This document shows, piece after piece, positions 10,934 to 31,224 of a stretch of DNA of 35,276 nucleotides. Under the pieces are notes generated by a model. The model was given only the letters and a program-made list of their open reading frames with translations, was not told where the DNA came from and made no database searches. Origin of the DNA: Croceicoccus sp. (GTDB lineage Bacteria; Pseudomonadota; Alphaproteobacteria; Sphingomonadales; Sphingomonadaceae); the NCBI GenBank assembly GCA_029936705.1, contig JAPYSD010000003.1, positions 1-35,276 on the forward strand, given 5' to 3'. How positions within the stretch are numbered: position 1 is the stretch's first letter; each line of letters begins with the position of its first letter. The position numbers and the translations under genes are program-made.

Positions 10934-11044
10934 AAAACCTACCTCTGTTGTACGTTGTACCGAGTGCGATGTGTTCGCCTGATACCCTAGACGCATCTAA
11001 CTGAGTACATTGCAACCAGAAAATCCAATCCGGTAAGTAAGAGC

Positions 11045-12395: not shown

Positions 12396-12401
12396 TAAAT
12401 A
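12396..12401 (+). promoter_or_regulatory. TAAATA putative phage late promoter, terS
   Basis: TAAATA-GCGGC-ATG (N5 to start). Confidence 0.5.
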
Positions 12402-12406
12402 GCGGC

Positions 12407-12925
12407 ATGGCCAAATCCACACAAACACCGTCGAGCACCATTGGTGACCTACAGCCAAAGCTAGCAAAGGGTGCGAAAGCCCTACAGGCAACCGCTAAGA
12501 AGGAAGCTCGTAAGCGCAAGCCACACGGCAACAGCAAGTTCAGCGAGGCAAAATGGACAGCCATTTTAGAATGCGTTGCGACCTATGGCGATCTGATTGA
12601 AGCCTGCGACAAACCCGACATGCCAAGCGTTACCACAATCTATCGCTGGATAAGCAACGACCCCAATCTAAAGGACGACATGCGCCAAGCGTGGGACATG
12701 TTCACGATGATCGGCAACAGCGTGAACAATAACATCCTAAGGGGCGGCAAACTATCAACGGGGGACTTCCGCAGGGACGAAGCCCTAGCAGCACAAAACC
12801 GCTGGTTCATGTCAAAGACGAACCGCAGGGACTTCGGCGACAAGCAACAGATAGATGTCGTACACCACGAACCCGTTATCCTAGATGGTATCATCATCGA
12901 CGGGGATGGTGGGGATGGCGTCTAA
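12407..12925 (+). CDS. Phage terminase small subunit
   Basis: MAKSTQTPSSTIGDL...FSEAKWTAILECVATYGDLIEACDKPDMPSVTTIYRWISNDPNLKDDMRQAWD...AALAAQNRWFMSKTNRRDFGDKQQIDV: HTH plus terS-like C-terminus; same direction as terL downstream. Confidence 0.75.
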   Translation: MAKSTQTPSSTIGDLQPKLAKGAKALQATAKKEARKRKPHGNSKFSEAKWTAILECVATYGDLIEACDKPDMPSVTTIYRWISNDPNLKDDMRQAWDMFTMIGNSVNNNILRGGKLSTGDFRRDEALAAQNRWFMSKTNRRDFGDKQQIDVVHHEPVILDGIIIDGDGGDGV

Positions 12926-13572
12926 GCGCAAATTCGCGCCACGCTAGCAGCACGCCAACGGCCACCCCTAGCGGTCTTGATGTGGCGATCATTCAGGTAG
13001 TCAGCGATGCTTTGCAGTGTGGTGCAGCCATTAGCCCTTGCGAGCGCCAGATAGGGTTCAACGAGGGCCTTCCACTCCCTGCTGCGCTCAACACGCGCAA
13101 TGGCGCTTGCCTGTCTTCCTAGGGCGCCTACGGCCCTTATGTTGCCCCGATCCCCTCCCAGCTTGGTGCCCCGTGCCTTTGCTGCCTTCAATGCCTCCTT
13201 GGTGCGCTTGCTAATTGTCTCGGCTTCCCACTGCGCAACCTGCGCCATGATGCCGATGGTAAAGCGGTCGGCAAAGGGCATGTCAGCGAAGCGAACCTCC
13301 TGCCCACTGTCGAACAGAGTATTGAGAAACGCGGCATTGCGGCTGAGCCTATCCAGCTTCGCAACGACGAGAACGGCACCCGTTAGCTTGGACAGGGCAA
13401 GGGCTTCCAGCAGCTTGGGGCGAGTGTTGGACTTGCCGGACTCGACTTCGACAAACTCTGCGATGGGTTGCTCGCCAATAGACCGTGCCACAGCCTCACG
13501 CTGCGCTTCCAATCCCAACCCACTATCACCCTGTTTGCGGGTGGATACACGGTAGTAGGCGACAAACTGCAT
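12922..13572 (-). CDS. Small serine recombinase / resolvase
   Basis: MQFVAYYRVSTRKQGDSGLGLEAQREAVARSIGEQ...VVAKLDRLSRN...RTKEALKAAKARGTKLGG; start at ATG 13572; its stop overlaps the terS stop tail-to-tail. Confidence 0.9.
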   Translation of the reverse strand: MQFVAYYRVSTRKQGDSGLGLEAQREAVARSIGEQPIAEFVEVESGKSNTRPKLLEALALSKLTGAVLVVAKLDRLSRNAAFLNTLFDSGQEVRFADMPFADRFTIGIMAQVAQWEAETISKRTKEALKAAKARGTKLGGDRGNIRAVGALGRQASAIARVERSREWKALVEPYLALARANGCTTLQSIADYLNDRHIKTARGGRWRAASVARICA

Positions 13573-13576
13573 GGTG

Positions 13577-13631
13577 GCTCCTGTTGCAACGGACATTGCA
13601 TCAGTCGTTAAAGCCGTTGAGCAGTAGGAGC
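13577..13631. repeat. Imperfect inverted repeat upstream of the resolvase (candidate res/operator site)
   Basis: GCTCCTGTTGCAACGG (13577-13592) versus CCGTTGAGCAGTAGGAGC (13614-13631), reverse-complementary with few mismatches. Confidence 0.4.
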
Positions 13632-13978
13632 GACCGAAGACAAGGGAGGGTAGTATACACCCCTTAGCGGCTTGGATCAGGACAGGCCGATCCCAGTCAT
13701 TCTGCCTACCTGAAACCACGCAACGCAGACCTGAGAATTTCCTTCACTCTGCTCAAAACCTAAACGCCTTTTCTCTAATCATGAAAGGCTGAGCGGCATT
13801 TGAGCATGTGACGCTTGGAGAGCGTCGTTAAGCTGTCAAAAGTGGCGGAAAGAAACTGGCAGATTTTGGAACCAGAATTCAACAAAGATAAGGTTCGGGT
13901 GGTGACGCATTTTGAAATTGGCGATACGGGAGCTGATGGTCTGTAACCGAGCGACGGTACGCCCTAGGGGGAATTTTC

Positions 13979-16387
13979 GTGACAATTGAGCTTGACCGGC
14001 TGGTCCAGAATTTGGACCCAACCCGTACGATTCTCTTTTTTGGCGCAGGATCATCAATTCCCTCCGGCTCGCCGTCTGCACCCGATTTGGCAAAAGCCAT
14101 TTCCGAGCGCTTCGAAATCGACGCTAATGGGTTCAGTCTCGCAGAGATCGCCGAGCTAGCTGAACTGAACGCCGACCGAGCGAAACTGATAACTTTCGTC
14201 CGAGAACAATTCCCCCGTCCCAACCCGACCGGGGGTTTGATGAACATCCCGCTCTTCGGGTGGAAGGGCGTCTACACCACCAATTACGATGAACTACTGG
14301 AGCGGACCTATCAAATACGAAAGGTGCCCTTCACGGCCATTACGACCAACTACGACTTCTCGAAGCTTACCGGTCCTCTAGCACAGCCAATTTATAAGAT
14401 TCATGGCACGATAGGTCAGGACGTTAGCGACGGTAACAAAAGCCGTATGATCCTGACACAGGGAGACTATGACAAAGCAATCGAATACCGAGAGTTCCTG
14501 TACACTCGCCTTGCTTCGGACATGGCCGGGGCAGACCTTGTGATCATTGGCTTCTCGCTTTCCGACCCGGACATCAAACAGGTAGTGGACCGGGTACTGA
14601 CCATTCAGGCGAAGATGGGTGGCGCTGGCGGTCAAGTCTACCTTCTGCTGTACCAGAAGGATGAAAACCGCGCACGCTTATTCGAGGCTCGGGGTGTTCG
14701 CGTATCTTTCGGGGGCATCGACGAGTTTTCGGAAGCACTGGCACGCAAGGGACCGGCGGCGAGCATTATCTACTCAAGCTCGAACGACCCGGTTCAACAA
14801 TCAAACATTCTTAGCGCGACAACGGTTGACGTGAAGCACTCGATTGAGAATTTCGCTTCGAACGCCAGCGCAATGTTCAATGGGTGGCCAGCGACCTACG
14901 CGGATGTTGCCGCCGACCTCACTTTTGGTCGGACCCTTTCCAGCAGCATTTTTAGCGCTTTCAAAGCTACTACCTATCAGTATGCCTCAATCGTAGGTGC
15001 GAGCGGCGTCGGGAAGACAACGGCTGCGCGCCAGATTGCGGTTCAAGCGGAAGCGGATGGGTGGTTGTGTTGGGAGCACAAGGTCGATTTCTCACTTTCG
15101 GTACATGATTGGACCACCGCAGCCGAGACACTTCAGTCTGCCGGTCTAGACGGTCTCTTGGTCATCGACGAGGCAAATTTCCACATAGGCGAAATCAATC
15201 GTCTGGTTGAAGCGCTGACCACAAAAGGTCTGACAAGTCTTCGTTTGGTGCTAACTTCCGGCCGCGCCCAATGGCAGTACCGCACCAAGTCAGTTTTCCT
15301 TACCAAGAACGGTAAGGAGCACCAACTCAGCAAACTGAACTCCCAAGAGATTGATCGCCTCATCATGCTGGTGTCCGCACCCAATGATGTTCGTCCTCTT
15401 GTTGAGGCAACATTCTCTGGATTCTCACTTCAGGAGAAGCGCAGACGCTTGGTCGAGCGGTGTGAGGCTGACGCCTTCGTCTGCCTCCGCAACATCTTCG
15501 CGACCGAGAAGTTCGACGACATCATCCTGCGCGAATACGCACAGATGAGCGTTGCCGATCAGGAAATCTACCGGTTGGTCTCCGCCATGCAGAATGCAGG
15601 CATTCGGGTACACCGGCAGCTTGTCATTCGGCTTACAAACATTGCAGCCGACATGGTCGAAACCGCCCTCCGCAATCTTGTGGACGTGATTTCGGAGTAC
15701 GACATTTCGGATCGGTTTGGAGTCTACGGCTGGAAGGTGCGCCACAGCGTCATCGCGGGCATCGTTGCGAAGTACAAGTACGCTGATCCGGCGGCGATGC
15801 TTGATTTGTTTGAGCGCGTGATCGCTAACATTTCACCGACATACGAGATCGAGCGACGCACAATTAATGAGATGTGTAACGTCGAAACTGGTCTACCGAG
15901 CATCGCTGATAAAGATACGCAGAACCGGCTTCTGCGCACACTTATCTCAATTGCTCCCGGCGAGCCTATCCCGCGCCACAGGCTCATTCGCAATCTCATC
16001 TCGCTGGAAAAATTCGATCTTGCCGAGACCGAGATAAGAGTATTCAAACACGACATTGGTGTTGATGGCCCTGTCGCGCGCTATCAAGTGGTTTTGCTGC
16101 TAGCCCGCGTGATGTACACACCGGGACTTATGGATGAAGATCGCCTCGTGATTTTGCGACAGGCGGAATCACAGGCTGCGGCATCGGCCGAAAAGTACAG
16201 CAACAATCGACACGTTTTGACAGCCTTCTGCGATGTCGGCATCGAGCTTATTAGGCGCGCTAATGACGAGACGTGTTTTGACGCGGCGATGAAAGCTCTT
16301 AAGGAAGCTGAGGTTCGGACAAGTGATGAGGAGATAACCAAGTCCATTCGCCATTACGAGCGCCGGAGGTTTGAAATCGGACTTTAA
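13979..16387 (+). CDS. SIR2-domain STAND-type NTPase (Avs/NLR-like anti-phage defense protein)
   Basis: N-terminal SIR2-like motifs ILFFGAGSSIPSGSPSAPDLAKAI, VYTTNYDELLE, IYKIHGTIG, DLVIIGFSLSDPDI; central P-loop IVGASGVGKTTAARQIA, Walker B GLLVIDEANF, sensor-like LRLVLTSGRAQW; long helical C-terminal region. GTG start at 13979. Confidence 0.85.
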   Translation: MTIELDRLVQNLDPTRTILFFGAGSSIPSGSPSAPDLAKAISERFEIDANGFSLAEIAELAELNADRAKLITFVREQFPRPNPTGGLMNIPLFGWKGVYTTNYDELLERTYQIRKVPFTAITTNYDFSKLTGPLAQPIYKIHGTIGQDVSDGNKSRMILTQGDYDKAIEYREFLYTRLASDMAGADLVIIGFSLSDPDIKQVVDRVLTIQAKMGGAGGQVYLLLYQKDENRARLFEARGVRVSFGGIDEFSEALARKGPAASIIYSSSNDPVQQSNILSATTVDVKHSIENFASNASAMFNGWPATYADVAADLTFGRTLSSSIFSAFKATTYQYASIVGASGVGKTTAARQIAVQAEADGWLCWEHKVDFSLSVHDWTTAAETLQSAGLDGLLVIDEANFHIGEINRLVEALTTKGLTSLRLVLTSGRAQWQYRTKSVFLTKNGKEHQLSKLNSQEIDRLIMLVSAPNDVRPLVEATFSGFSLQEKRRRLVERCEADAFVCLRNIFATEKFDDIILREYAQMSVADQEIYRLVSAMQNAGIRVHRQLVIRLTNIAADMVETALRNLVDVISEYDISDRFGVYGWKVRHSVIAGIVAKYKYADPAAMLDLFERVIANISPTYEIERRTINEMCNVETGLPSIADKDTQNRLLRTLISIAPGEPIPRHRLIRNLISLEKFDLAETEIRVFKHDIGVDGPVARYQVVLLLARVMYTPGLMDEDRLVILRQAESQAAASAEKYSNNRHVLTAFCDVGIELIRRANDETCFDAAMKALKEAEVRTSDEEITKSIRHYERRRFEIGL

Positions 16388-16526
16388 GTCACCGCCTGTC
16401 GGCCGCAAAAGTCGAGTTCCCATTCCTTTCTTAGCATTCAGCCCCCTGCGGCCTTTTGCTAAAGGCCAACATAACAGCTTTGGCGCATTACCGCGCAATA
16501 GACATTGGCCCGAACTCGGCATCTAG

Positions 16527-16532
16527 TAAATA
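16527..16532 (+). promoter_or_regulatory. TAAATA putative phage late promoter, terL
   Basis: TAAATA-CATGG-ATG (N5 to ATG 16538). Confidence 0.5.
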
Positions 16533-16537
16533 CATGG

Positions 16538-17977
16538 ATGGCGGGTACATCCAGTAAGACAAAAACTAAGGGCATCATACCCAACTTCGAGGGGTTCAAT
16601 GACGATCAGCGCGCCGCCTATGCGCTCGCAACTTCCAATAACAATAAATTCCACCTCTTTTATGGAGGTGCAGGGTCCGGCAAATCGTGGCTGATTATGT
16701 TCATCGTGATTTTGCGGGCATTGCGCGCTCCAAACTCACGCCATGCGATCTTCCGCTTAACCCGTACATCATGTGAGCGGACGCTCTTCGAGAAGACATT
16801 GATCGAGGTGTTAGAAGCAGGGTTCCCCGGCCTTTACCAGCAGTTGTTAGAGCGCAAAGCGTTTAACCACACAGACATGACCGTCACCCTGTCGAATGGC
16901 TCCATGCTGTTCTTCAACGGCTTGGATGAAAACCGTTTGACGAAGGTACTCGGTGACGAATTCAACACGGTCTGGGTCAACGAGTGCAATGAGGATGGGC
17001 TTTCCTACGCCACCGTAAACGTTCTGCTCAACCGTCTCCGTGCCGTTCGCAGGACCGTCGATGGCAAGACGCTCAAGAATAAGATGTTCTTCGACTGCAA
17101 CCCGCGCTTTTACAGCGATTGGGAATACAAGGTGTTTATGCAGGGTATCAACCCTGAGGATGGCGATGCAATTCCTCGTCCTGAGCAGTGGGTAAACTGC
17201 AAACTCAGGACCTTCTCCAACCAAGCAAATCTCTCTGAGGACTACTTGGAGAACCTAGAACTGATGGGCGCTAAGGATCGTAGGCGCTACATGGAGGGTG
17301 AGTGGTCGGATGAAAACCAGCACGCCCTGTTCACCGAGAAAATGTTCGTGCAAGGGCGCATTCCAAAGCCCACGCACATTCTTGATGCACACGACACGCT
17401 CAAGCATCTTGCCGAGGAAGGCATCCAGTTGGACCGTATCACGGTTGCCGCTGACCCCGCCGTTACCGCCGATTCCAAGAGCGACTTAACTGGTATCACG
17501 GTGCAGGGTATCTGCCAGCACGACGATGGGATTGAACATGCCTACGTCTTGGAGGACTTGTCGGGCCGCTACACACCAGACGCAGCCTGCAAGGTGATCG
17601 CAGACGCCTACAAGGAATGGGGATGCAGCCGCGTCATCATGGAAAAGAACCAAGGCGGTCTGTGGCTGGAAAGCACCCTGCGAAAGCACTTCCCTAGCGT
17701 TCCGCTCAAGTTCGTTTCCGCCACTACGACAACAGGCGGCAAAGCCAGCCGCGCTGAACCCGTTGCCGCGCAGTATGAGCGCGGTGTCGTCCACCACGTA
17801 GGAAGCTTCAAAGAACTCGAAACCCAAATGTGCGACTTCGGCAGTCCAGCATCTCGCCGCAAGTCACCTGACCGCATGGACGCTGTTGTCTGGGGTCTGA
17901 CGGAACTCTTCGACCTTGGTGCCGAGAAGAAGCCCATTCCCGGTAGCCGCGTAACTCGTCGCGGCTATCGGCGCTAA
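16538..17977 (+). CDS. terL: Phage terminase large subunit
   Basis: FHLFYGGAGSGKSW (Walker A), VWVNECNE (Walker B-like), MFFDCNPRFYSDWEYKVF, nuclease motifs AADPAVTADSKSDLTGI and MDAVVWGLTELF. ATG at 16538 preferred over track TTG at 16505. Confidence 0.92.
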   Translation: MAGTSSKTKTKGIIPNFEGFNDDQRAAYALATSNNNKFHLFYGGAGSGKSWLIMFIVILRALRAPNSRHAIFRLTRTSCERTLFEKTLIEVLEAGFPGLYQQLLERKAFNHTDMTVTLSNGSMLFFNGLDENRLTKVLGDEFNTVWVNECNEDGLSYATVNVLLNRLRAVRRTVDGKTLKNKMFFDCNPRFYSDWEYKVFMQGINPEDGDAIPRPEQWVNCKLRTFSNQANLSEDYLENLELMGAKDRRRYMEGEWSDENQHALFTEKMFVQGRIPKPTHILDAHDTLKHLAEEGIQLDRITVAADPAVTADSKSDLTGITVQGICQHDDGIEHAYVLEDLSGRYTPDAACKVIADAYKEWGCSRVIMEKNQGGLWLESTLRKHFPSVPLKFVSATTTTGGKASRAEPVAAQYERGVVHHVGSFKELETQMCDFGSPASRRKSPDRMDAVVWGLTELFDLGAEKKPIPGSRVTRRGYRR

Positions 17978-18053
17978 CCCAATCCCTTGCCGGAATAAGT
18001 ATTAAGTCAGGGGCGCCCCTCTGGCCGAAGTAACTTATGGGCAGAGGGATAAC

Positions 18054-19457
18054 TTGGCACAGGAAATCAACCAACCGACACTAGAGATTTCGAAGTGGCA
18101 TAATCGCTGGCAGCGCAACCGAGACTTTGTTGACGGTGAGGAAGCGGTAAAGGCGAAGGGCGAACTCTACCTCCCCAAAGTACGGGTTACTGATAGCGCG
18201 GCTGAGTACACAGCTCATCTACAACGTACAGGCTTCTTTCCAGCCGCGTTCAAGATCGCACAGGGCTGGATGGGGCTGATCTTCCGGAAAGACCCTGACC
18301 TGCAAGCTGGTGCCCGCACCAAACTGCTAGCTGGCCTCGCTACCCGCGACGGCCTGACACTGGACGACTTATCTGCATGGTTCGTCCGCGAGACGCTGAT
18401 TACCAACTTCACTGGCGCGCTTGTCGATCACCCACCTCGCAACGCTTTCCCTGCGAGCATGAGCGCAGCCGATGAACTGCGCTTGGGTTTCCGCCCCTAT
18501 CTCGCCCGCTACACTGCCGAGAACATCCTAGAGGTCACACGCGGCTTCATCGGTATGCAGGTTGGCATTGTCCGCGTCCGTTTGCTGGAGGATGCAGGCA
18601 AGCAGGTGCGCGAACTGCTCATCAATGGCGCTGGACAATACGAGGTTCGCGTCCATCGCGACACAGGCAATGGCGGCTTCCAGCAGGTAGAGCGCTACAT
18701 TCCTGAGCAGGATGGCAAGCCGCTATCAAAGATCCCGTTCGTCCTCCTGAACACAGAGGACAGCATCACGCCCACTCCGAGCCTGCTGGAAAATGCCGTT
18801 GGTCTGAACCATCAGCACTATCTGCAGGAGAGCGCGCTTGCCGCTGCCATTCATCTCACTCAAGCGCCTCGTGCTGTCATCACAGGCTACGTACCGGCGA
18901 AGGACGAGGATGGAAACGACATCATCACCGAATGGGCAATCGAACCCGGCGCGGTATGGGAGTTTCCAGACAAGGAGGTAAAGGTCGATTGGCACACTTA
19001 TGCGCCGGAGGGCCAAGAACTCGTCATCAACAAGATGCGCGATTTGAAGGATGCGTTGAGCGCGATCGGTCACTCCATCCTTGCCCCTGAGAAGCCAGCG
19101 CCGGAAGCTGCCGAGACACAGCTAATCCGCCGCGCCGCTGAAAACGCCATGCTCGCTGATTTCACTAAGCGCATCGCCAGTCGCTTAGAGCGTACCTATT
19201 CCAAATGGGGTCAGTGGATTGACGGCCAGCCAGTTCGCTACGCACTCAATCTAGATTTTGTGCCGCAGCCTATGGCAGCGCAACAAGCGACGCTTCTGTC
19301 CAACATGGTAACGGCTGGACAGCTTTCGCTTCGCACTCTGCACGAAGCACTCAAGCAAGGCGAGTTGATGCCGCTGGACTTCGACCCTGAGGTGGAGGCG
19401 CAGCGCATCGCAGAAGAGCAAATTGACCTCCCGCCAATCGCACCGCCGGGTGAATAA
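18054..19457 (+). CDS. Phage portal protein (DUF4055-like)
   Basis: Position directly after terL; YTAHLQRTGFFPAAFKIAQGWMGLIFRKDPDL ... TQAPRAVITGYVPAKDEDG... typical of DUF4055 portal proteins; TTG start. Confidence 0.8.
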   Translation: MAQEINQPTLEISKWHNRWQRNRDFVDGEEAVKAKGELYLPKVRVTDSAAEYTAHLQRTGFFPAAFKIAQGWMGLIFRKDPDLQAGARTKLLAGLATRDGLTLDDLSAWFVRETLITNFTGALVDHPPRNAFPASMSAADELRLGFRPYLARYTAENILEVTRGFIGMQVGIVRVRLLEDAGKQVRELLINGAGQYEVRVHRDTGNGGFQQVERYIPEQDGKPLSKIPFVLLNTEDSITPTPSLLENAVGLNHQHYLQESALAAAIHLTQAPRAVITGYVPAKDEDGNDIITEWAIEPGAVWEFPDKEVKVDWHTYAPEGQELVINKMRDLKDALSAIGHSILAPEKPAPEAAETQLIRRAAENAMLADFTKRIASRLERTYSKWGQWIDGQPVRYALNLDFVPQPMAAQQATLLSNMVTAGQLSLRTLHEALKQGELMPLDFDPEVEAQRIAEEQIDLPPIAPPGE

Positions 19458-20530
19458 TGGCCAGCGTCAATGAGCAGCTACAAGACCGTGCCATCCGACA
19501 CGCGATTGCCCTGCAACGCTATGGCAAGGGTCTGTCTGACAAGCTGGTAAGACTGCTCAACAGCGCAGACGCAGACATCGTCGAAACCCTCGCCAAGCGG
19601 CTTGTCGCGATTGACGAAGGAGGGTTCGACACCGGCCCCGCTACCACCAAGCGATTGCAGAAGGTGTTAGAGGAAGTCCGCGCCCTGAACAGCGCAGTCT
19701 ACAAGTCCCTTCACGTTGAATTGGAGGGTGAGCTGGTCAAGTTCGCGGCAGCAGAAGCGGCCGCGCAAAAGGCAGCGCTGGAAACCGCCCTGGTGGTGGA
19801 ATTGGGCACCAAGCTACCAGCACCAGCCAGACTTGCCGCTATCGTCTCTGAGACGCCCATACAGGGCTATTTGCTCAAGCTGTGGGTCGACGGCATGGAG
19901 AAGGCCCGCATGGACCGCATTGAGCAGCAAATCCGCATCGGACTGCTCGAAGGCGAAGGCACGGACAAGATCGTCCGTCGCATCCGTGGAACCAAAGCGG
20001 CTGGCTATCGCGATGGCATCTTGGACAAGAGCCGCCGTTCCACACAGAGCCTAGTTCGTACTGCCGTGACGCAGGTGAGCAATGTCGCGGCTCAGGAAAC
20101 GTGGAAGGCCAATTCCCGATACGTGAAGGGCTGGCAATTCCTCGCCACACTCGACAGCCGCACGACTGTCACCTGTGCTGGTTTGTCGGGGCAGACGTTC
20201 CAGATTGGGGAAGGCCCAATGCCACCTCGCCACGTTGCTTGCCGTTCCATTAGCGTCCCCGTCACCAAGTCCTTCCGCGAATTGGGATTGGACAAGGACG
20301 AACTACCTAAGGGCACCCGCGCTAGCATGGATGGGCAGGTAGCTGGCGATACCACCTTCAAGGATTGGTTGCTGCGCAAAGGCGACACCATGCAGTACAA
20401 GGTACTCGGCAAGACCCGCGCTCAATTGTTCCGCTCGGGTAAGCTGGACCTAGACCAATTCATCAAGGCAGATGGCACTGTCCTTACATTGGACGAACTG
20501 GAAGCTCTATACCCTTCGCTGCTCAAGTAG
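19457..20530 (+). CDS. Phage head morphogenesis (SPP1 gp7-like) minor capsid protein
   Basis: C-terminal LATLDSRTTVTCAGLSGQTFQIGEGPMPPRHVACRSISVPV is the gp7/Mu-F-like signature. Confidence 0.88.
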   Translation: MASVNEQLQDRAIRHAIALQRYGKGLSDKLVRLLNSADADIVETLAKRLVAIDEGGFDTGPATTKRLQKVLEEVRALNSAVYKSLHVELEGELVKFAAAEAAAQKAALETALVVELGTKLPAPARLAAIVSETPIQGYLLKLWVDGMEKARMDRIEQQIRIGLLEGEGTDKIVRRIRGTKAAGYRDGILDKSRRSTQSLVRTAVTQVSNVAAQETWKANSRYVKGWQFLATLDSRTTVTCAGLSGQTFQIGEGPMPPRHVACRSISVPVTKSFRELGLDKDELPKGTRASMDGQVAGDTTFKDWLLRKGDTMQYKVLGKTRAQLFRSGKLDLDQFIKADGTVLTLDELEALYPSLLK

Positions 20531-21004
20531 GTCGTCCAATTCAGCCAAACTCTGGTCTAGATTTCCGGCCATCCCCCTGCAAATCAGCCTGACTACCGAG
20601 GGGCTAGAAATTGTCGGGTCTGGATAGCTATTATGAAGAATGGAGCCAACTTCGCTGAACAAGCGGGGGTAGTCAGTAGCCAGCGATTGCAAAGATCTTA
20701 TCCTGACACGGAGTCGTTCGGCATTGTTCCAATTATCGGCAGTGAACGATTGTAACCCACCCAAATCACCTAAGGTCGCAAGTCTCGCGAACTCATCTCG
20801 CAATTGTTCAGTGACGCGAATAACCTCGTTGATGAGGCTCTGGTGTCTCTGGCGTTCCGCTCTTTCAGCCTCATCCTTCTGCCACCGTGCAAACCGCTTT
20901 TGGCCATCGGCGATCCACACCGCCGCGATAACGGCGACGATGCTGCCTATGGCAGCAGCCCAGTCCGCTGCATTCCCCCATGTGACTTCCAACGCACAGA
21001 ACAT
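20507..21004 (-). CDS. Small membrane-anchored coiled-coil protein, antisense moron in the head operon
   Basis: MFCALEVTWGNAADWAAAIGSIVAVIAAVWIADGQKRFARWQKDEAERAERQR...: N-terminal TM and helix; fills a gap between structural genes on the opposite strand. Confidence 0.65.
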   Translation of the reverse strand: MFCALEVTWGNAADWAAAIGSIVAVIAAVWIADGQKRFARWQKDEAERAERQRHQSLINEVIRVTEQLRDEFARLATLGDLGGLQSFTADNWNNAERLRVRIRSLQSLATDYPRLFSEVGSILHNSYPDPTISSPSVVRLICRGMAGNLDQSLAELDDLLEQRRV

Positions 21005-21016
21005 CGGCCCTCCAAA

Positions 21017-21022
21017 TAAATA
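21017..21022 (+). promoter_or_regulatory. TAAATA putative phage late promoter, scaffold
   Basis: TAAATA-AGATT-then hairpin GAAGCCGA/TCGGCTTC starting at 21028. Confidence 0.5.
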
Positions 21023-21085
21023 AGATTGAAGCCGACAGTCTCGGCTTCCTGAGAGTCCAGTCGGCTCCTGAGAGGAAGACCTATA

Positions 21086-21730: not shown

Positions 21731-21747
21731 GCCCAGAACCTACAGCA

Positions 21748-21753
21748 TAAATA
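21748..21753 (+). promoter_or_regulatory. TAAATA putative phage late promoter, capsid
   Basis: gcaTAAATAgcc abutting the 11-bp leader hairpin. Confidence 0.5.
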
Positions 21754-21782
21754 GCCGGTCAGGAGAAGCTACCTGACCGGCT
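21753..21782 (+). promoter_or_regulatory. Strong hairpin in the capsid gene leader
   Basis: AGCCGGTCAGG-AGAAGCTA-CCTGACCGGCT, 11-bp perfect stem, no U tract. Confidence 0.65.
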
Positions 21783-21827
21783 CCAACTTGCGAGCCGAAC
21801 TAACTACGCAAAGTTGGAGAAAACTTT

Positions 21828-22784: not shown

Positions 22785-22804
22785 TAGGCAACGCTAGCGA
22801 TTGG

Positions 22805-22831
22805 GGCCGCTCCGCAAGGGGCGGCCTTTTT
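22805..22831 (+). terminator. Rho-independent terminator after capsid gene
   Basis: GGCCGCTCC-GCAA-GGGGCGGCC-TTTTTC with GNRA loop and U tract. Confidence 0.85.
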
Positions 22832-22841
22832 CGTCTGAGGT

Positions 22842-22847
22842 TAAATA
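22842..22847 (+). promoter_or_regulatory. TAAATA putative phage late promoter, connector operon
   Basis: TAAATAccgcgA just downstream of the capsid terminator. Confidence 0.55.
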
Positions 22848-22872
22848 CCGCGACACAAACAACGGGGCGAAC

Positions 22873-23268
22873 ATGGACCTAGCAGCATCAAGAACCTACG
22901 CCGCAGAGCGTCAGCTAGAACAATGGGACTTGGAAGCGGATGACGTTCTCCAAGCGAAGTTGCTGCTAGCATCAGACTACATCGCGGAACGCTATCAACT
23001 AAAGGCGGAACTAAGCGCCTCTGAGCAAGCGAAGCTAGATGTCGCGCAATTCAAGATTGCCTATGACTTCCTTGTCAACGGCGATCCAGCCAGCCGTGAG
23101 GAACGCATCACCACCAAGGAGAAGAGCGAACTGAGTGGCTTGGGTAAAGAGGAAAAGGAGTTCGCAGATGTCGAATACGATCCTTATCCCGGCGTAACGA
23201 GGCTCTTGGCGCCCCTGTGCGTCTCCACATCGCCCGCAAGCGTTAGCTTCGGCAAGTTGGTGCGCTAA
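22873..23268 (+). CDS. Head-tail connector / adaptor-like protein
   Basis: 131-aa ORF from ATG 22873, directly after the capsid gene, overlapping next ORF. Confidence 0.6.
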   Translation: MDLAASRTYAAERQLEQWDLEADDVLQAKLLLASDYIAERYQLKAELSASEQAKLDVAQFKIAYDFLVNGDPASREERITTKEKSELSGLGKEEKEFADVEYDPYPGVTRLLAPLCVSTSPASVSFGKLVR

Positions 23269-23603
23269 TGTCGTTCTACGCCAACATGGCCCTTCTAGCG
23301 GCTTCCCTGCTCGCCAAGTTCGGCGCTTCTGCAACGCTGACCTCCAATAGCCGCACCTTCAACAAACAGACCAACCGGATGGAGGGCGAGACCGCAGAGG
23401 CAACACAATGCCGCGCAGTTGTTCGCCCTGTGGAGATTATCGACGAAGATGGCCGCGAGGTCACCTACACGCAGGCAGTCTTGAACGTCGAACCCGTTGA
23501 AGGCGGCAAGCTAACCCTTGGCAGCGATACCTACAACATCGGCAAGGTAACAGTTGTCAAGCCTATCGGCAGTCCAATCATCTACTTCGCGGAGGTCAGC
23601 TAA
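23268..23603 (+). CDS. Head closure / head-tail joining protein candidate
   Basis: 111 aa, position and beta-rich sequence; 1-nt overlaps on both sides. Confidence 0.55.
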   Translation: MSFYANMALLAASLLAKFGASATLTSNSRTFNKQTNRMEGETAEATQCRAVVRPVEIIDEDGREVTYTQAVLNVEPVEGGKLTLGSDTYNIGKVTVVKPIGSPIIYFAEVS

Positions 23604-23899
23604 TGCGCATCGACCTTAGCGATCTGATGGATGGCAGCATCGAAAAACTAGTGGATGAAGCAGTCCTAGACGTAACCGCAAAGGTAACGCTGGATGCTCA
23701 CCGCAACTTGGTCGAGGCAAGCCCCGTTAAATCTGGTGCCTTTCGTGGCGCGTGGACCGTCGAAACTCCGAACAAAGCCTATGACGATGGCATGATCGAG
23801 AACGACAAAGAATACGCGGCAGCGCTCGCTAAGGGACATTCCCCTCAAGCACCTTCCGGATGGGTGGAGAACAGTATTGAGGCGGCAACCCGCCTGTAA
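23603..23899 (+). CDS. HK97 gp10-like tail completion protein
   Basis: VTLDAHRNLVEASPVKSGAFRGAWTVETP...AAALAKGHSPQAPSGWVENSIEAA: typical SPVxTGxxRxSW...G.S.QAPxG pattern. Confidence 0.7.
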   Translation: MRIDLSDLMDGSIEKLVDEAVLDVTAKVTLDAHRNLVEASPVKSGAFRGAWTVETPNKAYDDGMIENDKEYAAALAKGHSPQAPSGWVENSIEAATRL

Positions 23900-23908
23900 G
23901 GAGACACA

Positions 23909-24340
23909 ATGAAAATCTACATGGACATTGATACGCTAAATGCGAAGTTTTGGGCAACTGCGCTTACCTACGACGAAGGCGCAAAGACAATTCCAGAAAG
24001 CCAAATCCTCACTGAGAATGGCCCTGTGCAGGAAGTGGACGAGGCTCAGCCTTGGGTCCGCTGGACAATCAACCCCGGCGCAAGCCAGCGCGTCACACAG
24101 GGCGAAACGGCCCTCTTCAAGAACCTAGGCACTGCCTTTCTGGAAGTCTTGGTTCCGAAGGGCACAGGCACCGCCACAGGTGAGGAAATTCGTGATGCTC
24201 TCATTGCTGCACTGGCAGATTGGAAGAGCGACGATAAGGCGCTGCACATCTACAAGCACAACGCATCCAAAGGACAAGGTACTAAGGAAAGCCATCAACT
24301 GAACGCGGTCTTCTACTACGAGTCCAAGCGCGAAGCCTAA
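23909..24340 (+). CDS. Tail terminator protein candidate
   Basis: Position; WVRWTINPGASQRVTQGETALFKNLGTAFLEVLVPKGTGTATGEEIRDALIAAL resembles minor tail/tail terminator proteins. Confidence 0.65.
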   Translation: MKIYMDIDTLNAKFWATALTYDEGAKTIPESQILTENGPVQEVDEAQPWVRWTINPGASQRVTQGETALFKNLGTAFLEVLVPKGTGTATGEEIRDALIAALADWKSDDKALHIYKHNASKGQGTKESHQLNAVFYYESKREA

Positions 24341-24355
24341 TTGCGGATAGGCGCA

Positions 24356-24361
24356 TAAATA
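24356..24361 (+). promoter_or_regulatory. TAAATA putative phage late promoter, tail tube
   Basis: TAAATA-CCGCG-GAGCCGAATGCGGCTC hairpin at predicted +1. Confidence 0.55.
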
Positions 24362-24410
24362 CCGCGGAGCCGAATGCGGCTCCCCTAGTCTATAGATACA
24401 GGAGAACCGC

Positions 24411-25316
24411 ATGGCACTCGTTAATGCATCCGATCTCTTTCACTCAATTGTGAAGGAAACCACTTTCGGGGAGACGCCTACCACTGGCGCTACCCGCTAT
24501 GAACTACCCGTAGCAGCAGACCAAGAACCCCTTGCTGCTAGCGCGACTGTAATTGCAAGCAACACAAAGCGCCCGATGCGTTCGAGCAACGGCCAGCGCC
24601 GTGGTGCTGAAGTAGTGGAAGGCTCAGTTTCCACCCGCTTCGTGAAGGCTGACTTCATGGACCTTCTGCTTGAGAACGCGCTCTGCAACAGCTTCACAAC
24701 GAACGTCCTAAAGGCTGGCGACACCGATCAATCGTTCTCGATGATTACCAAGTTCGCTGACGACATGTACAAGATCAACGCTGGCTGCGCAGTCACCGGC
24801 TTCTCGATCACGGCTAAGGGCAACGAGGAAGTTGCGATCAGCTTCGACATCATGGGCAGCAAGCAGACCCGCTCTGCAACTGACAATGCTCTCGCCGTTA
24901 CCAATGCAACCGGCCTTGTCGAATTCATCGGATCGGAAGTCGGCACCATCACGGTAGCTGGTCAGACCCTACAGGTTGCAGACCTCACTTTCTCGACCAA
25001 GCTGGACAAGACCCGCCGCTTCGCGCTCGGCAGCAATAACAGCCTAGCTTATGGCGTGAATGGAGTTCGTGAGACGATCCTGACTGTGAAGGCTTACCGC
25101 GAGAGCTTCGCAATCGACACCGCGATCACCGGCCTAGAGCAGGCTTGCTCGTTCCAGATTGGTGGCAATGGCACCGGCTACAGCTTCGAAATGCCCGCCG
25201 CTTATGGCGACATTCCGAAGGACACGCTGAGCGACGGTAGCGCGTTCGCGGAAATCAACTTCTCGGCTGCATACGACGACACAGCAGATACCAGCCTAGT
25301 CATCACCAAACTCTAA
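24411..25316 (+). CDS. Major tail (tube) protein
   Basis: 301-aa SSD-type tail tube-like protein after tail terminator; SD aggaga. Confidence 0.75.
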   Translation: MALVNASDLFHSIVKETTFGETPTTGATRYELPVAADQEPLAASATVIASNTKRPMRSSNGQRRGAEVVEGSVSTRFVKADFMDLLLENALCNSFTTNVLKAGDTDQSFSMITKFADDMYKINAGCAVTGFSITAKGNEEVAISFDIMGSKQTRSATDNALAVTNATGLVEFIGSEVGTITVAGQTLQVADLTFSTKLDKTRRFALGSNNSLAYGVNGVRETILTVKAYRESFAIDTAITGLEQACSFQIGGNGTGYSFEMPAAYGDIPKDTLSDGSAFAEINFSAAYDDTADTSLVITKL

Positions 25317-25398
25317 TTTAGAACGGGACGCTCTCCTCCCTTAACCGTTCTAATGGGTGGCTCGTTGCTCTGGCAGCGGGCCATTCCCATGAACTGCA

Positions 25399-25404
25399 TA
25401 AATA
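25399..25404 (+). promoter_or_regulatory. TAAATA putative phage late promoter, tail chaperone
   Basis: gcaTAAATACttgg upstream of SD and ATG 25433. Confidence 0.5.
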
Positions 25405-25432
25405 CTTGGCCAATTTATGTGAGGAGATTCCA

Positions 25433-25891
25433 ATGGCCAAAATCAATTTCGACATTCCAACTCGTTTTGACGAAGAGCAGGCACGCGAAGGTGTCTGGTT
25501 CTCGATTGAAGACGAGCATGACCAGCTTTGGGGCGAGTTCAAGCTAGCTTACTTGGATGGCGATGCACCTGAGATTAAGAAGCTGCGCACCAAGCTGAAA
25601 GCCAAGTATGCGAAGGACATTCGCCTAGGCAAGCTGGATCAAGACAAGGTAGCGATGGAAGTCTTCCTGTCGTTCGTCCTGCTCGATTGGCGTAAGGTCA
25701 AAGCAAATGGCAAGGACGTAACGTTCAGCCGCGAAGCAGCAGAGGCCTATTTTGCCATTCCTAAAGTAGCATCCTTCGCATGGCCAAGGCTACTACAGTA
25801 CGCCAGTGACGTTCGCCACTACAACGATAAGGCAGCAGAACAAGGTGTCGATCCTGTAATTGATAAGGACGAAACTCTGGGAAACTCCTAA
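25433..25891 (+). CDS. Tail assembly chaperone (G-like)
   Basis: SD gaggaga; MAKINFDIPTRFDEEQAREGVWFSIEDEHDQLWGEFKLAYLDGD...; located between tail tube and tape measure. Confidence 0.75.
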   Translation: MAKINFDIPTRFDEEQAREGVWFSIEDEHDQLWGEFKLAYLDGDAPEIKKLRTKLKAKYAKDIRLGKLDQDKVAMEVFLSFVLLDWRKVKANGKDVTFSREAAEAYFAIPKVASFAWPRLLQYASDVRHYNDKAAEQGVDPVIDKDETLGNS

Positions 25892-26217
25892 GCCAACTCA
25901 AATGGACACTCCGCGAAGACTTGGAAACCCTACAGGACGAAGCCGACGCGGGTGTCCCCTATGCCATTGAGGCGCTGGACAAAGCATCCACCGAGTACAA
26001 CGAGTTCTACTGGTGGGCGTTCAGCGAATTAGCAACCGAGCGACAAATAGGAATGGCCGTTGGCGCGATTCCATGTAGTGCTATCCATGCCTTCTGCGAC
26101 GAGCATCGTATCACAGGCTATGAGCGCTATGTGTTTCATCATTGTATGCGCGAACTAGACATCGTCCAACGCAAGCACATCAAGAAGAAGAGCGATAGCG
26201 CGGCGAAGGCCAAGTAA
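25867..26217 (+). CDS. Tail assembly chaperone T part (expressed as GT fusion by -1 frameshift)
   Basis: Open -1 frame relative to G from 25867; no credible own SD/ATG (track start is TTG); GGGAAAC heptamer at 25879-25885. Confidence 0.75.
   Translation, partial: GRNSGKLLSQLKWTLREDLETLQDEADAGVPYAIEALDKASTEYNEFYWWAFSELATERQIGMAVGAIPCSAIHAFCDEHRITGYERYVFHHCMRELDIVQRKHIKKKSDSAAKAK
25879..25885 (+). promoter_or_regulatory. Programmed -1 ribosomal frameshift slippery site GGGAAAC
   Basis: In the zero frame reads ctG GGA AAC tcc taa, exact X XXY YYZ form, two codons before the G stop. Confidence 0.8.
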
Positions 26218-26226
26218 CCCACGGAG

Positions 26227-26232
26227 TAAATA
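26227..26232 (+). promoter_or_regulatory. TAAATA putative phage late promoter, tape measure
   Basis: gagTAAATACgggcA upstream of the tape measure gene. Confidence 0.5.
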
Positions 26233-26256
26233 CGGGCACAGACTTATGAGGTGCCC

Positions 26257-29200
26257 ATGGCGGAAGCTGAGAAAGTAATTAGAATCCGTATCGACGCGTC
26301 GGGTGCCCAAACAGGTGCCCGACAAGTTGGCGGCGCGATTGATAACGTAAAAGCAAAAGCCGCGGGCCTAGTCGGTGCTAACGACAACGCGGCGGGTTCG
26401 TTCAATCGCTTAGGCTCGGCCATGGGCGGCGCATCCAAACATGGCGCTGCGATGCAGGGCATCTTAGGCGGCATTCAGGGCCGTGCAGCTTCCACCGTTC
26501 CCGTTATCGGCAATCTGGTAAGCACACTCGCTGGCATGGGGCCGCAAGCTGCCGTGGTTGCGGCAGTGGGTGCAGCATTTGCCATCGTGGCAGCAAAGGC
26601 GGTCCAAGCGGCTGCGCAGGTGCAAAGCTGGAAAGCCTCGCTCCAGACAGTCACGGGAAGCGCAGAGGCTGCTGACTCCGCCTATCGCGGTCTAGTCCAG
26701 TTTGCAGCCAATACACCATTCACGCTGGACCAGTCGATTGAAGGCTTCACGAAGCTGCGCTCGCTTGGCCTGTCCACCAGCGAAGAAATCATGACCAGCT
26801 ACGGCAACACCTCGGCTGCGATGGGCAAGTCCATGACGCAAATGGTCGAGGCTGTTGCGGACGCCACCACTGGCGAGTTTGAACGTCTTAAGGAGTTCGG
26901 CATCAAGGCCAAGTCCGAAGGCGACAACGTGGCTTTCACCTTCCAAGGCGTCACCAAAACCGTTGGCAAGAACGCGAAGGAAATTGAAAAGTATCTCATC
27001 GACATTGGCAACACCAAGTTCGCTTCCGCGATGGCGTTGCAGATGCAAACGCTCAATGCCGCATTCTCCAACTTGGAGGATAGCATCTTCCAGATGTTCG
27101 CTCGCATGGGAGAGGGCGAACTAGGCGATCTTGTCAAAGACATCGTCCAGATAATCTCGGCAGGCGTTTCGTCCATCACCCCGCTCCTAGGCGGCATCAT
27201 GGACTTCTTCGGCGGCATACTGCGCGCTGTCTGGGAGGTGACGAAGGGCGTTGCTCAGTTCTTCACCGTCGGCTTCGGCGGTGCAGAGGGCGCAGGTAAT
27301 GTGCTCGACACTTTGGGTGTCGCGTTCTCCGTTGTCGGTCAGGTGGCTTCCATCGTCGGCAAGGTCATTGGCAGCGTCTTCGGCGTCATCGCGCAAACTG
27401 CCGGAATGGTGGTCGGTCTAATCCAGTCGGCATTTCAAAAGCTGTTCGGCTGGATGCTACCTAGCTTCGACCTAACCGGACAATCGGCCGGCGAAAGTCT
27501 CATGGGCATCCTGCGCGCTGGTGAGTTCATCGCGAACACCCTGCCAGATGTGTTTGCGACTGCGCTTAAAGAGATCAAGTCCATGTTCGTCAGCGCGGGT
27601 CAGGCGCTTGCTGCGAGCCTAACAGGCGACTTCTCGCTTTGGGATAACGTGGACCTCTCGTTCTCCAAAACGAAGGCGGCATCCGCAGCCATGCGGACCG
27701 AAGCTGGCAAGATCTTCGCAGACCAGAAAGCCAACCGCGCCATGCTGGATGATCTGCGCGGCGACTTTGGCGGCGGCAACATCGACTATGACGCACTAGG
27801 TGGAACGCCAAGCGGTGCGCAGGGCGGCGGCAGCGCTGGCAAGAACGCAGAGGCCGAGAAGAAGCGGCTAGCGGACGAGTTCTGGGAAACCCTCAAAAAC
27901 CAAGCCGCTACCGCTGCACTCCTACCAATCGAAGCCGAAAACCTCACGAAGCAGCAAGAACTACAGAAAATCCTAGGCCGCGATCTGGCCAAGGATGAGC
28001 AAGATCGCGTGAACGCTGCAATGCAGCTCATCCGCACAAATGAGTTCCTGACCAGTGCGAAGGAGGCCAGCGCGGCAGCCAACCGCAAAGCTGGAATCGA
28101 GGAAGAACTTACCCGCAAGCGGATAGCGGGAATGAGCGAAGAGCAGCTTGAGGTTGAGCGCGCTGTTCTCGAATTCCGCACCGACGCATTGGCCGAGGGA
28201 TTGGACCTAGAGGACGAGCGATACAGAAAGGCAGAAGAGCAGCTTCGCATTGATGAGCAGCGCCTAGCGATACAAGAAAAGATCAACGCTCAGTTGTCTC
28301 GCGCTACCGGCCTCGCTGACCAGTACAGCCAGACCTATCGAACGGCGCAGGAAACCATTGGCTTTGCCAAGGATCGTGAAGCTGCCCGCGTTGCCTACAA
28401 CAGTGGAGAGTATGGCACTGGCGAGGTTGCAGAGCGAACCTACAGGGAAGTCCTAGAGGGCATTGACGACGCTTCGAAGGAAGGCGGTCGCCGCATGAAG
28501 GAAGAACTGGGCTTCGCAATCGAAGACCTAGGCTCCATGATTAAGGGCAGTTGGGGCAAAGCGATCAGCGGTCTTGGCTACCTCATCCAAGACATGGTTG
28601 CAGCATCACGCGGCGATGTGGCTAGCGGCGGATTGATGGGCGGCATTGCTGGCGTGCTCAGCAGCGCGCTTGGCGACGAGAAGGGCTCCATAGCCAAGGG
28701 CTACGCCGAAGCTACCGAGAAGACCCTCACAGGGCTGTTCAAGGGCGAAACATGGACGAAGCCCCTATCCAGCATGACGAGCAGCTTTGCTGACTTCAAA
28801 GGGAGCTTGGGCAGCATCTTCGGCAAGGGCGGCGACTTCATGAAGGGCATGGGCAATGTCCTCGGCACCCTAGGCGCTGGCGCGCAAATGGGCGGAATGG
28901 TCGCAGGCGTTGGCAAAGCCCTGTGGGGCAAGTTCAGCACCACTGGCGCGCAGGTCGGCGGTGCAATTGGAAACATCTTTGGTCCGATCGGTGGCATGAT
29001 TGGTTCGACGCTTGGCGGCATCGTGGGCGGTGCTTTCAAGAAGACCAAATGGGGCGCCGCTGACATCACGGCAAACGGCGTCACGACGAGGGGCAACAAT
29101 GGAACGTCCATTGACGGCGCAGTGGCGGCGAGCGGGAACATCACGGACAGCCTAGCGCGGATCGCAGACACGCTTGGCGGCAACGTGGGCGACTTCGGCA

Positions 29201-30069
29201 GGATCGTAATTGGCCAGCGACACGACGACTGGCGCGTCAATGCAACGGGTACCAGCCTGAAAAAGAAAAAGGGCGCGACCGAGTTTGACGACGATCAGGA
29301 AGGCGCAATTCGCTATGCCCTCAGCCTCGCAATCGAGCGCGGCGCTATCACCGGCATCCGCGCTTCCACCAACCGACTTTTAAAGGCCGGTAGTGACATC
29401 GAGGCGCAGCTAGAAAAGGCCCTGCAATTCGAAGGTGTGTTCAAAAGTCTGGATGCGCTGAAAGACCCTGTGCAGGCAGCAATTAGCGGCCTCAACACTG
29501 AGTTTGAGCAGCTAACCGGCTTGTTCAAGGAGGCAGGTGCTAGCGCAGCAGAATGGGCCAATCTTGAGGAATACCGCAGTCTAAAGATGCAGGAGTTGAT
29601 GAAGCAGGAAACTTCCACTCTGCGTGATCTTCTCAAGGATTTGAACGGCGAGGCAGGCGGCGCAAGTCCACTGTCATTGCTGACACGCGACATGGCTGAT
29701 TTGGCCAAGTTCCAGACCGACATTGCGGCTGGAAAGTCCGTCGATCAGGGCGAGTATTCCGACCTTGTAGGAAGCATCCTGGACAATGCTTCGATCTACG
29801 GCGCGAACTCCACTGAGTATCAGGCCATCATTGAGAAGCTACGCGGTGCAACCGAAGGGGCGATTGAAAACATCGAAAGCCGTTTCGAGAACGATCCGAC
29901 GACGAACGCGATCATGGATGGCACGAACGCGACCGTAAGCGCAATCGGACAGACCAACGACATCCTGTCGCGCATAGAGGAAAGGCTGGCGGCCACAAAC
30001 ACGAACACAAATTCCAGCGGCCCTTGGGCAAGAGCAGCGGCCCGCAATGGCAAGCTGCTAGCCTACTGA
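26257..30069 (+). CDS. Tail tape measure protein
   Basis: ~1270 aa; LQTVTGSAEAADSAYRGLVQFAANTPFTLDQSIEGFTKLRSLGLS...SYGNTSAAMGKSMTQMVEAVADATTGEFERLKEFGIKAK, glycine/alanine-rich hydrophobic stretches. ATG 26257 or GTG 26251. Confidence 0.92.
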   Translation: MAEAEKVIRIRIDASGAQTGARQVGGAIDNVKAKAAGLVGANDNAAGSFNRLGSAMGGASKHGAAMQGILGGIQGRAASTVPVIGNLVSTLAGMGPQAAVVAAVGAAFAIVAAKAVQAAAQVQSWKASLQTVTGSAEAADSAYRGLVQFAANTPFTLDQSIEGFTKLRSLGLSTSEEIMTSYGNTSAAMGKSMTQMVEAVADATTGEFERLKEFGIKAKSEGDNVAFTFQGVTKTVGKNAKEIEKYLIDIGNTKFASAMALQMQTLNAAFSNLEDSIFQMFARMGEGELGDLVKDIVQIISAGVSSITPLLGGIMDFFGGILRAVWEVTKGVAQFFTVGFGGAEGAGNVLDTLGVAFSVVGQVASIVGKVIGSVFGVIAQTAGMVVGLIQSAFQKLFGWMLPSFDLTGQSAGESLMGILRAGEFIANTLPDVFATALKEIKSMFVSAGQALAASLTGDFSLWDNVDLSFSKTKAASAAMRTEAGKIFADQKANRAMLDDLRGDFGGGNIDYDALGGTPSGAQGGGSAGKNAEAEKKRLADEFWETLKNQAATAALLPIEAENLTKQQELQKILGRDLAKDEQDRVNAAMQLIRTNEFLTSAKEASAAANRKAGIEEELTRKRIAGMSEEQLEVERAVLEFRTDALAEGLDLEDERYRKAEEQLRIDEQRLAIQEKINAQLSRATGLADQYSQTYRTAQETIGFAKDREAARVAYNSGEYGTGEVAERTYREVLEGIDDASKEGGRRMKEELGFAIEDLGSMIKGSWGKAISGLGYLIQDMVAASRGDVASGGLMGGIAGVLSSALGDEKGSIAKGYAEATEKTLTGLFKGETWTKPLSSMTSSFADFKGSLGSIFGKGGDFMKGMGNVLGTLGAGAQMGGMVAGVGKALWGKFSTTGAQVGGAIGNIFGPIGGMIGSTLGGIVGGAFKKTKWGAADITANGVTTRGNNGTSIDGAVAASGNITDSLARIADTLGGNVGDFGRIVIGQRHDDWRVNATGTSLKKKKGATEFDDDQEGAIRYALSLAIERGAITGIRASTNRLLKAGSDIEAQLEKALQFEGVFKSLDALKDPVQAAISGLNTEFEQLTGLFKEAGASAAEWANLEEYRSLKMQELMKQETSTLRDLLKDLNGEAGGASPLSLLTRDMADLAKFQTDIAAGKSVDQGEYSDLVGSILDNASIYGANSTEYQAIIEKLRGATEGAIENIESRFENDPTTNAIMDGTNATVSAIGQTNDILSRIEERLAATNTNTNSSGPWARAAARNGKLLAY

Positions 30070-30074
30070 GGGGG

Positions 30075-30080
30075 TAAATA
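30075..30080 (+). promoter_or_regulatory. TAAATA putative phage late promoter, 30086 gene
   Basis: TAAATA-CGAGC-ATG (N5 to start). Confidence 0.5.
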
Positions 30081-30085
30081 CGAGC

Positions 30086-30439
30086 ATGGCACTTGATCCC
30101 CTCAGAGCAGCTTTCATCAAGCAGGAATACCGCTACGCCATCGCGAAGGATGCCGCGCTCCTAGGAGCAGACAAATCCGCGAGGTCGATAGAGGTTGCGG
30201 CCAATGTGGATGCGGCAACCGCTTCCAATCTCGCTGCTACCATCCTCGCTCAGAACGCTGCCGCCAAAGTCTACAGTGTCGAGATTGAGGGCTTGCTCAC
30301 GCTTGATAGCTTCCTTGGCGGTGTCCCTCGTTACATTCCCGAAATTGCAGAGCTTTCTACGGATGGCAGGACATGCCTTGTCCTCTCATTCGAGAGCGAT
30401 CTTGAGACGGGGAAGACTACTGCAAAGGTGTTTGGCTAA
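30086..30439 (+). CDS. Hypothetical tail-associated protein (117 aa)
   Basis: Between tape measure and distal tail genes; tight packing with downstream gene. Confidence 0.6.
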   Translation: MALDPLRAAFIKQEYRYAIAKDAALLGADKSARSIEVAANVDAATASNLAATILAQNAAAKVYSVEIEGLLTLDSFLGGVPRYIPEIAELSTDGRTCLVLSFESDLETGKTTAKVFG

Positions 30440-31203
30440 TGAGCATTGGAACCTATCTCGTCCGCCCCTACAATCTCACGGTTACAGGGTCGCAAAGCGC
30501 AGCAAGCGCACCAGCCAGCAACCTGAATGTCGATTATCCGAACATGGTTTGGAGAAGCACAGGCACAACGGGCGCTTATGTCGCCATCGCCCTTGATGCT
30601 TCGCTTTCGTGGGACTTCGTAGGGCTGGTGGGCGCTAGTCTCTTTGGCGCAGACACCATTCGCATCCGGGCGGCTGGAAGTGCAGCAAACGTCACAGCTT
30701 CACCGGCCTATGACCAGACATTCAACGTCACTGGCACGGAGAACGCGGACTTTAATCTCGCCTACCACTTGCCCGAGACCGCGATGTCGCACCGCTACAT
30801 TCGACTGGACTTCACGCTCTCAGGCAATCCAAACGCCTTCGTGCAGGTACAGCGTCTTGTCATTGGAAAGCGCCTAGAGGGCGAAGGTATCGACGTTGGC
30901 GCGGACTTCAATTTCGAGGACACAAGCCGCATCACCGAATACCGTGGCATCCAGATTTCAGACCCATTTGACGCGAAGCAGTCGTGGAAGTTCAGCATCA
31001 GCAATGTGAAGGCCACCGATTACAACAGCAAGTGGAAGTCCTTCCTGAAAGCATCCAGCGGTAATGCGGTGCTGTTTATCCCTGACACATTCACTGGCGC
31101 ACATAGTCAGGAGGGAGTGTTCGGACGCATCCAAGGCCAAACAAACGGCAGTCTGGAATCCGGTGATACTTACAAGGTGAACCTCTACATAAGGGAGGTC
31201 TAA
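30439..31203 (+). CDS. Distal tail-like protein with possible discoidin/galactose-binding-like N-terminal domain
   Basis: MSIGTYLVRPYNLTVTGSQSAASAPASNLNVDYPNMVWRSTGT...YIRLDFTLSGNPNAFVQVQRLVIGKRLE. Confidence 0.55.
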   Translation: MSIGTYLVRPYNLTVTGSQSAASAPASNLNVDYPNMVWRSTGTTGAYVAIALDASLSWDFVGLVGASLFGADTIRIRAAGSAANVTASPAYDQTFNVTGTENADFNLAYHLPETAMSHRYIRLDFTLSGNPNAFVQVQRLVIGKRLEGEGIDVGADFNFEDTSRITEYRGIQISDPFDAKQSWKFSISNVKATDYNSKWKSFLKASSGNAVLFIPDTFTGAHSQEGVFGRIQGQTNGSLESGDTYKVNLYIREV

Positions 31204-31212
31204 GCCAAAGCT

Positions 31213-31218
31213 TAAATA
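31213..31218 (+). promoter_or_regulatory. TAAATA putative phage late promoter, large tail protein
   Basis: TAAATA-AGCGGT-ATG (N6 to start). Confidence 0.5.
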
Positions 31219-31224
31219 AGCGGT

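Follow-up and report, generated by a model that had tools for sequence, protein, structure and literature searches.

TAARTA, a candidate single-element promoter at the heads of late operons in temperate Sphingomonadaceae phages

Late operons of a Croceicoccus prophage and its relatives are headed by a short conserved box, TAA(A/G)TA, which we read (probability about 0.8) as a promoter made of this single element, with RNA predicted to start about 5 nt downstream. The box had been noticed earlier as TAAATA and proposed to define a late promoter regulon lacking a -35 element and resembling the T4 late core. That observation is real and stronger than originally stated: synteny in 16 relatives, a pronounced strand bias and the restriction to operon heads strongly support such a regulon, with further support from the spacing of start codons and from an unrelated prophage carrying the same signal.

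The TAARTA box in the prophage window

The window, the whole stretch of 35,276 nucleotides that was analysed, encodes an Sf6-like small terminase, a large terminase, a DUF4055 portal, a MuF-like head protein, a scaffold, a major capsid protein, a connector and tail proteins, and this gene set identifies it as the late module of a siphovirus-like prophage. As the contig ends within a long tail gene, the remainder of the prophage lies outside the window. An exact search of both strands found ten copies of TAAATA, all on the plus strand and none on the minus strand, at the positions given in the earlier note; all ten sit in gaps between late-region genes (Table 1). These gaps amount to 1,320 bases, in which base composition predicts 0.32 copies per strand, an enrichment over chance that bears out the original impression. 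The plus strand of the late region also holds a single TAAGTA, likewise within a gap, the variant previously described for the portal leader. The signal is best written TAARTA.

Boxes are absent, as had been claimed, from the overlapping or abutting genes at 19457, 23268, 23603 and 30439, and the genes at 23909 and 25921 join this list. Distances from box to start codon range from 5 to 74 nt, in line with the earlier estimate of 5 to about 75 nt. Two details needed correction. The base following TAAATA is C in six of the ten copies rather than seven, and the left accessory arm, said to contain no further exact copies, is indeed free of TAAATA but does carry one TAAGTA (at 11034).

Table 1. Boxes and leader hairpins in the window; positions count from its first base, and stem offsets from the first T of the box (0).
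Feature	Position	Strand	Remark
TAAGTA variant	11034..11039	+	5 nt before ATG of ORF 11045-11263 (72 aa)
TAAATA	12396..12401	+	5 nt before ATG 12407, Sf6-type small terminase; predicted leaderless
TAAATA	16527..16532	+	5 nt before ATG 16538, large terminase; predicted leaderless
TAAGTA variant, head of portal gene (18054)	17996..18001	+	hairpin from +10
TAAATA, head of scaffold gene (21086)	21017..21022	+	
Scaffold-leader 5' hairpin, 8-bp stem from +11	21028..21048	+	equalled by 0 of 100 shuffles
TAAATA, head of major capsid gene (21828)	21748..21753	+	
Capsid-leader 10-bp hairpin, directly 3' of box	21754..21781	+	
TAAATA	22842..22847	+	25 nt before ATG 22873
TAAATA, head of tail tube gene (24411)	24356..24361	+	gene matches Phage_tube_2
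Tail-tube-leader 5' hairpin, 7-bp stem from +10	24366..24383	+	
TAAATA	25399..25404	+	28 nt before ATG 25433
TAAATA, head of tape measure gene (ATG 26257)	26227..26232	+	
Tape measure leader stem GGGCAC/GTGCCC	26234..26256	+	Shine-Dalgarno region paired within stem
TAAATA	30075..30080	+	5 nt before ATG 30086; predicted leaderless
TAAATA	31213..31218	+	6 nt before ATG 31225, long tail protein running off contig; predicted leaderless

Several genes of the window interrupt or flank the late module. A small serine recombinase gene (12922-13671, minus strand) follows the small terminase gene, and one does so in 17 of 17 related contigs (type-1 phages), in either orientation and in two kinds (~180 and 216-238 aa). 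Between the terminase genes lies a cargo gene for an 802-aa SIR2-STAND protein (13979-16387, plus strand), which is likely an anti-phage defence gene. An opposite-strand ORF of 165 aa (20507-21004, minus strand) is inserted between the head and scaffold genes and has relatives in genomes G401 and G410. A small, putatively DUF2958-like gene at 9249-9707 (plus strand) has relatives in G401, G403, G410 and G088, in each case within the left arm.

Conservation in related and unrelated phages

Terminase searches recovered relatives with 49-83% identity, both among viral contigs and in genomes that include Sphingobium and Sphingomonas. Across 16 phage contigs TAARTA occurs 119 times on the late strand versus 5 times on the opposite strand, against a dinucleotide-shuffle expectation of 28.7 per strand, although these counts are not independent because the relatives share ancestry. 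A gene-by-gene comparison shows the box kept at the same operon heads: TAAATA or TAAGTA precedes the small and large terminase, portal, scaffold and capsid genes, and also heads the counterparts of the gene at 22873, the tube gene, the gene at 25433, the tape measure gene, the gene at 30086 and the long tail gene, while the relatives' coupled genes are never box-headed. Some genes scored as lacking a box have a longest ORF that begins upstream of the true start, or a site beyond the scanned stretch, and the sites behind such entries were mostly recovered in other site listings of the same phages. The form at operon heads is TAAATA or, as almost the sole alternative, TAAGTA; since the relatives' sites were collected by exact matching, this constancy partly reflects how the sites were picked and the syntenic comparison is the fairer test. 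Prophages of the same bacterial family with more distant terminases (37-39% identity) did not show the box.

Synteny already refutes the reading of the boxes as chance AT-rich hexamers in AT-richer gaps, whose probability we regard as negligible. Although the motif is short, and 2 of 100 whole-window shuffles reach ten or more TAAATA on both strands combined, chance would have to account for the excess in the gaps, for conservation at this level of terminase divergence and for the strand bias among the relatives.

Sphingomonas sp. Leaf242 has two prophages with the box, one of which (contig C9, ~168-208 kb; L088-L091) is of a second, unrelated type, with an HK97-type terminase, portal, protease and capsid. 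Here some 20 boxes lie on the late strand and head most late genes, and 13 genes, including an opposite-strand endolysin, begin with ATG or GTG 4-5 nt past the box. What this prophage has in common with the first phage type is chiefly a large serine integrase, an SF3-type helicase (in one relative) and a protein family termed family X; part of a tail fibre and a small protein encoded close to one end are shared as well. A third contig, L096, carries the box too. A literature search found no paper that deals with Sphingomonas phage late promoters or with leaderless late mRNAs in prophages of this kind.

Predicted transcription start and leaders

In an alignment of 113 sites, numbered from the first T of the box as 0, information content does not exceed 0.10 bit between -55 and -14, and no -35 signal is seen, in agreement with the earlier remark that no conserved -35 is visible. 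The two bases preceding TAARTA vary, leaving TAARTA as the only conserved block; there is a weak preference for C at -5/-4, no TG at -3/-2, and the last base of the box is A in every site collected. Downstream, G is favoured at +6 (57%), +8 (45%) and +9 (69%), and +11 is a purine in 70% of sites. Where a start codon follows within 16 nt, it mostly lies close behind the box: 5 nt after it in 24 cases, 4 nt in 9 and 6 nt in 4, with single cases at 2 and 7 nt; none lie at 8-10 nt, and a few are found at 11-15 nt, some with an intervening Shine-Dalgarno sequence.

Hairpins in the longer leaders mark a similar position. Of 26 scaffold, portal and tube leaders, 23 have a hairpin whose first base lies at +9 to +12. 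As start codons and hairpins thus mark one point ~5 nt past the box, we take that point as the transcription start, which probably lies at +10/+11, and several late mRNAs are then probably leaderless. Shine-Dalgarno pairing in the long-leader genes sampled has a median of -6.4 kcal/mol versus 0.2 for the close-start genes, whose poor score is partly forced because the box fills that position. Capsid leaders fit this start less well and count against it: in 11 of 11 phages their hairpin sets in at +6 to +8, formed by several different stem sequences and weakest in G402; as these hairpins start upstream of the predicted RNA start, only their inner half would be transcribed.

We posit that TAARTA acts as a stand-alone -10-type promoter element. 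In the lytic phase, the host multi-subunit RNA polymerase together with a small phage-controlled specificity factor would bind the box, the factor contacting the -10 region only, with no use of a -35 box. RNA would start ~5 nt (4-6) past the box, giving a leaderless mRNA where the start codon lies exactly at the RNA start and elsewhere a short leader with a Shine-Dalgarno sequence, often capped by a 5' hairpin. One copy of the box would serve each late operon. The motif itself, where it lies, its conservation, strand bias and spacing are observed, whereas promoter activity, the start site and the kind of factor are inferred from sequence.

The same 5'-end anatomy would be expected if TAARTA were an RNA signal at which an endonuclease cut one long late transcript ~5 nt after UAARUA, yielding leaderless and hairpin-capped ends, and cleavage would also account for boxes at operon heads only. 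We consider it distinctly unlikely, because the box also heads the small terminase gene, with which the late block opens, stands before lone genes on the opposite strand (the second prophage's endolysin is one), and is followed by a G-rich stretch that looks like a promoter discriminator. Still less probable, to the point of being very improbable, is a single-subunit phage RNA polymerase (T7-, N4- or mitochondrial-like) that would read the box and start right after it. Such polymerases can use very short promoters, and the capsid-leader hairpins do start right at the end of the box, but the spacing and the remaining hairpins indicate +10/+11, and the two prophages that look complete contain no non-structural gene of the size of such a polymerase. 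A search with the single-subunit polymerase profile (PF00940) gave no match, but neither did the controls, so that this result is not evidence.

If TAARTA is a promoter as proposed, the tape measure leader may be regulated as well. In the window and in G132 the Shine-Dalgarno region falls within its stem, whose 5' arm would largely be missing from an RNA that starts at +11. In T4, hairpins of genes e and I-TevI hide the ribosome site in read-through RNA, which in gene e silences it, and RNA from the late promoter lacks the 5' part of the hairpin (PMC3014915, PMC2988020). The tape measure leader may work like these T4 leaders, a parallel drawn from sequence.

The factor reading the box and known promoter systems

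The earlier note expected a phage-encoded sigma factor or RNA polymerase-modifying protein, and none was found. Searches with the gp55 family (phrog_234, E<=10) in seven genomes or records gave no match, with the window's own prophage covered only partly; Sigma70_r2 (PF04542, E<=10) matched solely outside the two complete-looking prophages; and PHROG scans of further non-structural proteins of these two were likewise free of sigma matches. The second prophage encodes a 49-aa HTH protein with a weak resemblance to late activators (E 0.009). Family X, a leftward gene in many of these phages (10334-10933 on the minus strand of the window, ~180 aa) and in plasmid-like loci, has no Pfam match, only weak PHROG matches and a poor AlphaFold model (pLDDT 58). 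It was rejected as a candidate regulator: plasmid-like loci of G136 encode it but have no TAARTA clusters, and no copy came to light in the box-carrying L011.

A phage-controlled factor acting on the -10 alone is nevertheless the most economical reading, and we consider it somewhat more probable than not, though less certain than the promoter itself, that the factor is both phage-controlled and sigma-like. Its main rival is a host-encoded sigma, which a phage coactivator or anti-sigma might redirect; with a host sigma the phages would need no specificity factor of their own. The failure to find a phage-encoded sigma fits this rival, as do the sharing of the box by phages with unrelated structural modules within one bacterial family and the lack of any non-structural protein found in every box-carrying phage. 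Against it stands the host genome G132, where TAARTA followed 5 nt later by ATG has 4 matches outside the prophage and a reversed-pattern control has 6; this near-background frequency argues against routine host use. The other prophages of the same family without the box also weigh against a host sigma, and TAARTA lacks the T that the housekeeping -10 element has at -7. On balance we judge a host-encoded sigma unlikely. Wider genome surveys add little: the leaderless pattern, sought in hundreds of genomes from the order and the class, turned up mainly isolated single hits that were not informative, and TAARTAGNGG had few matches in host genomes, where codon bias makes the reversed control an unfair comparison.

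The best-known late promoters that consist of one box and have a dedicated factor come from lytic phages, T4 and phiEco32 among them. In the present case the single-box design spans temperate phages with unrelated structural genes, often with predicted leaderless mRNAs for packaging and tail proteins, and despite that design no known sigma was found in the two complete-looking prophages. As a tentative generalization, modular temperate phages of Sphingomonadaceae may use an undescribed minimal promoter, TAARTA, read by a phage- or host-encoded factor outside the known sigma families, with leaderless late mRNAs as a general strategy. Under the promoter model, dozens of start sites are predicted to the base, and the TAARTA regulon opens a clean hunt for the promoter-specificity factor behind it.

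The likeness to T4 late promoters holds for architecture and fails for sequence. T4 late promoters (TATAAATA; gp55, gp33, gp45) share with the present boxes a single element that precedes the start (predicted here) by roughly one helical turn, the lack of a -35 and one box per late operon. The 8-bp TATAAATA box is not completed here, as the 5' TA is absent before TAAATA, and G is tolerated at box position 4, unlike in T4. AT pairs predominate downstream of the T4 box (PMC2988020), whereas the corresponding stretch here is G-rich. The many predicted leaderless starts and the setting in temperate phages of ~35-40 kb also differ from T4, and the gp55 search found no homologue of its sigma. Middle and late promoters of phiEco32 likewise consist of a single element without a -35, with a start 6-8 bp downstream and a sigma lacking region 4 (PMC8948821), but the box (tAATGTAtA) differs from TAARTA and phiEco32 encodes a recognisable sigma, gp36. 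The TAARTA promoters would thus work in a similar way, but because box sequence and downstream composition differ and no matching factor was found, we do not class them as members of the T4 or phiEco32 type. The late promoters of AR9 (AACA-6N-TA/G) and phiKZ (TATG) are similar in being very short elements before many late genes; they are read by phage multi-subunit polymerases, of which none was seen here, and their RNA begins within the element or at its last bases, with AR9 leaders of 26-491 nt (PMC5312081). Housekeeping sigma-70 promoters are set apart by their -35 or TGn extended -10 and a T at the last -10 position, in contrast to the TAARTA box, which has neither -35 nor TG and ends in A.
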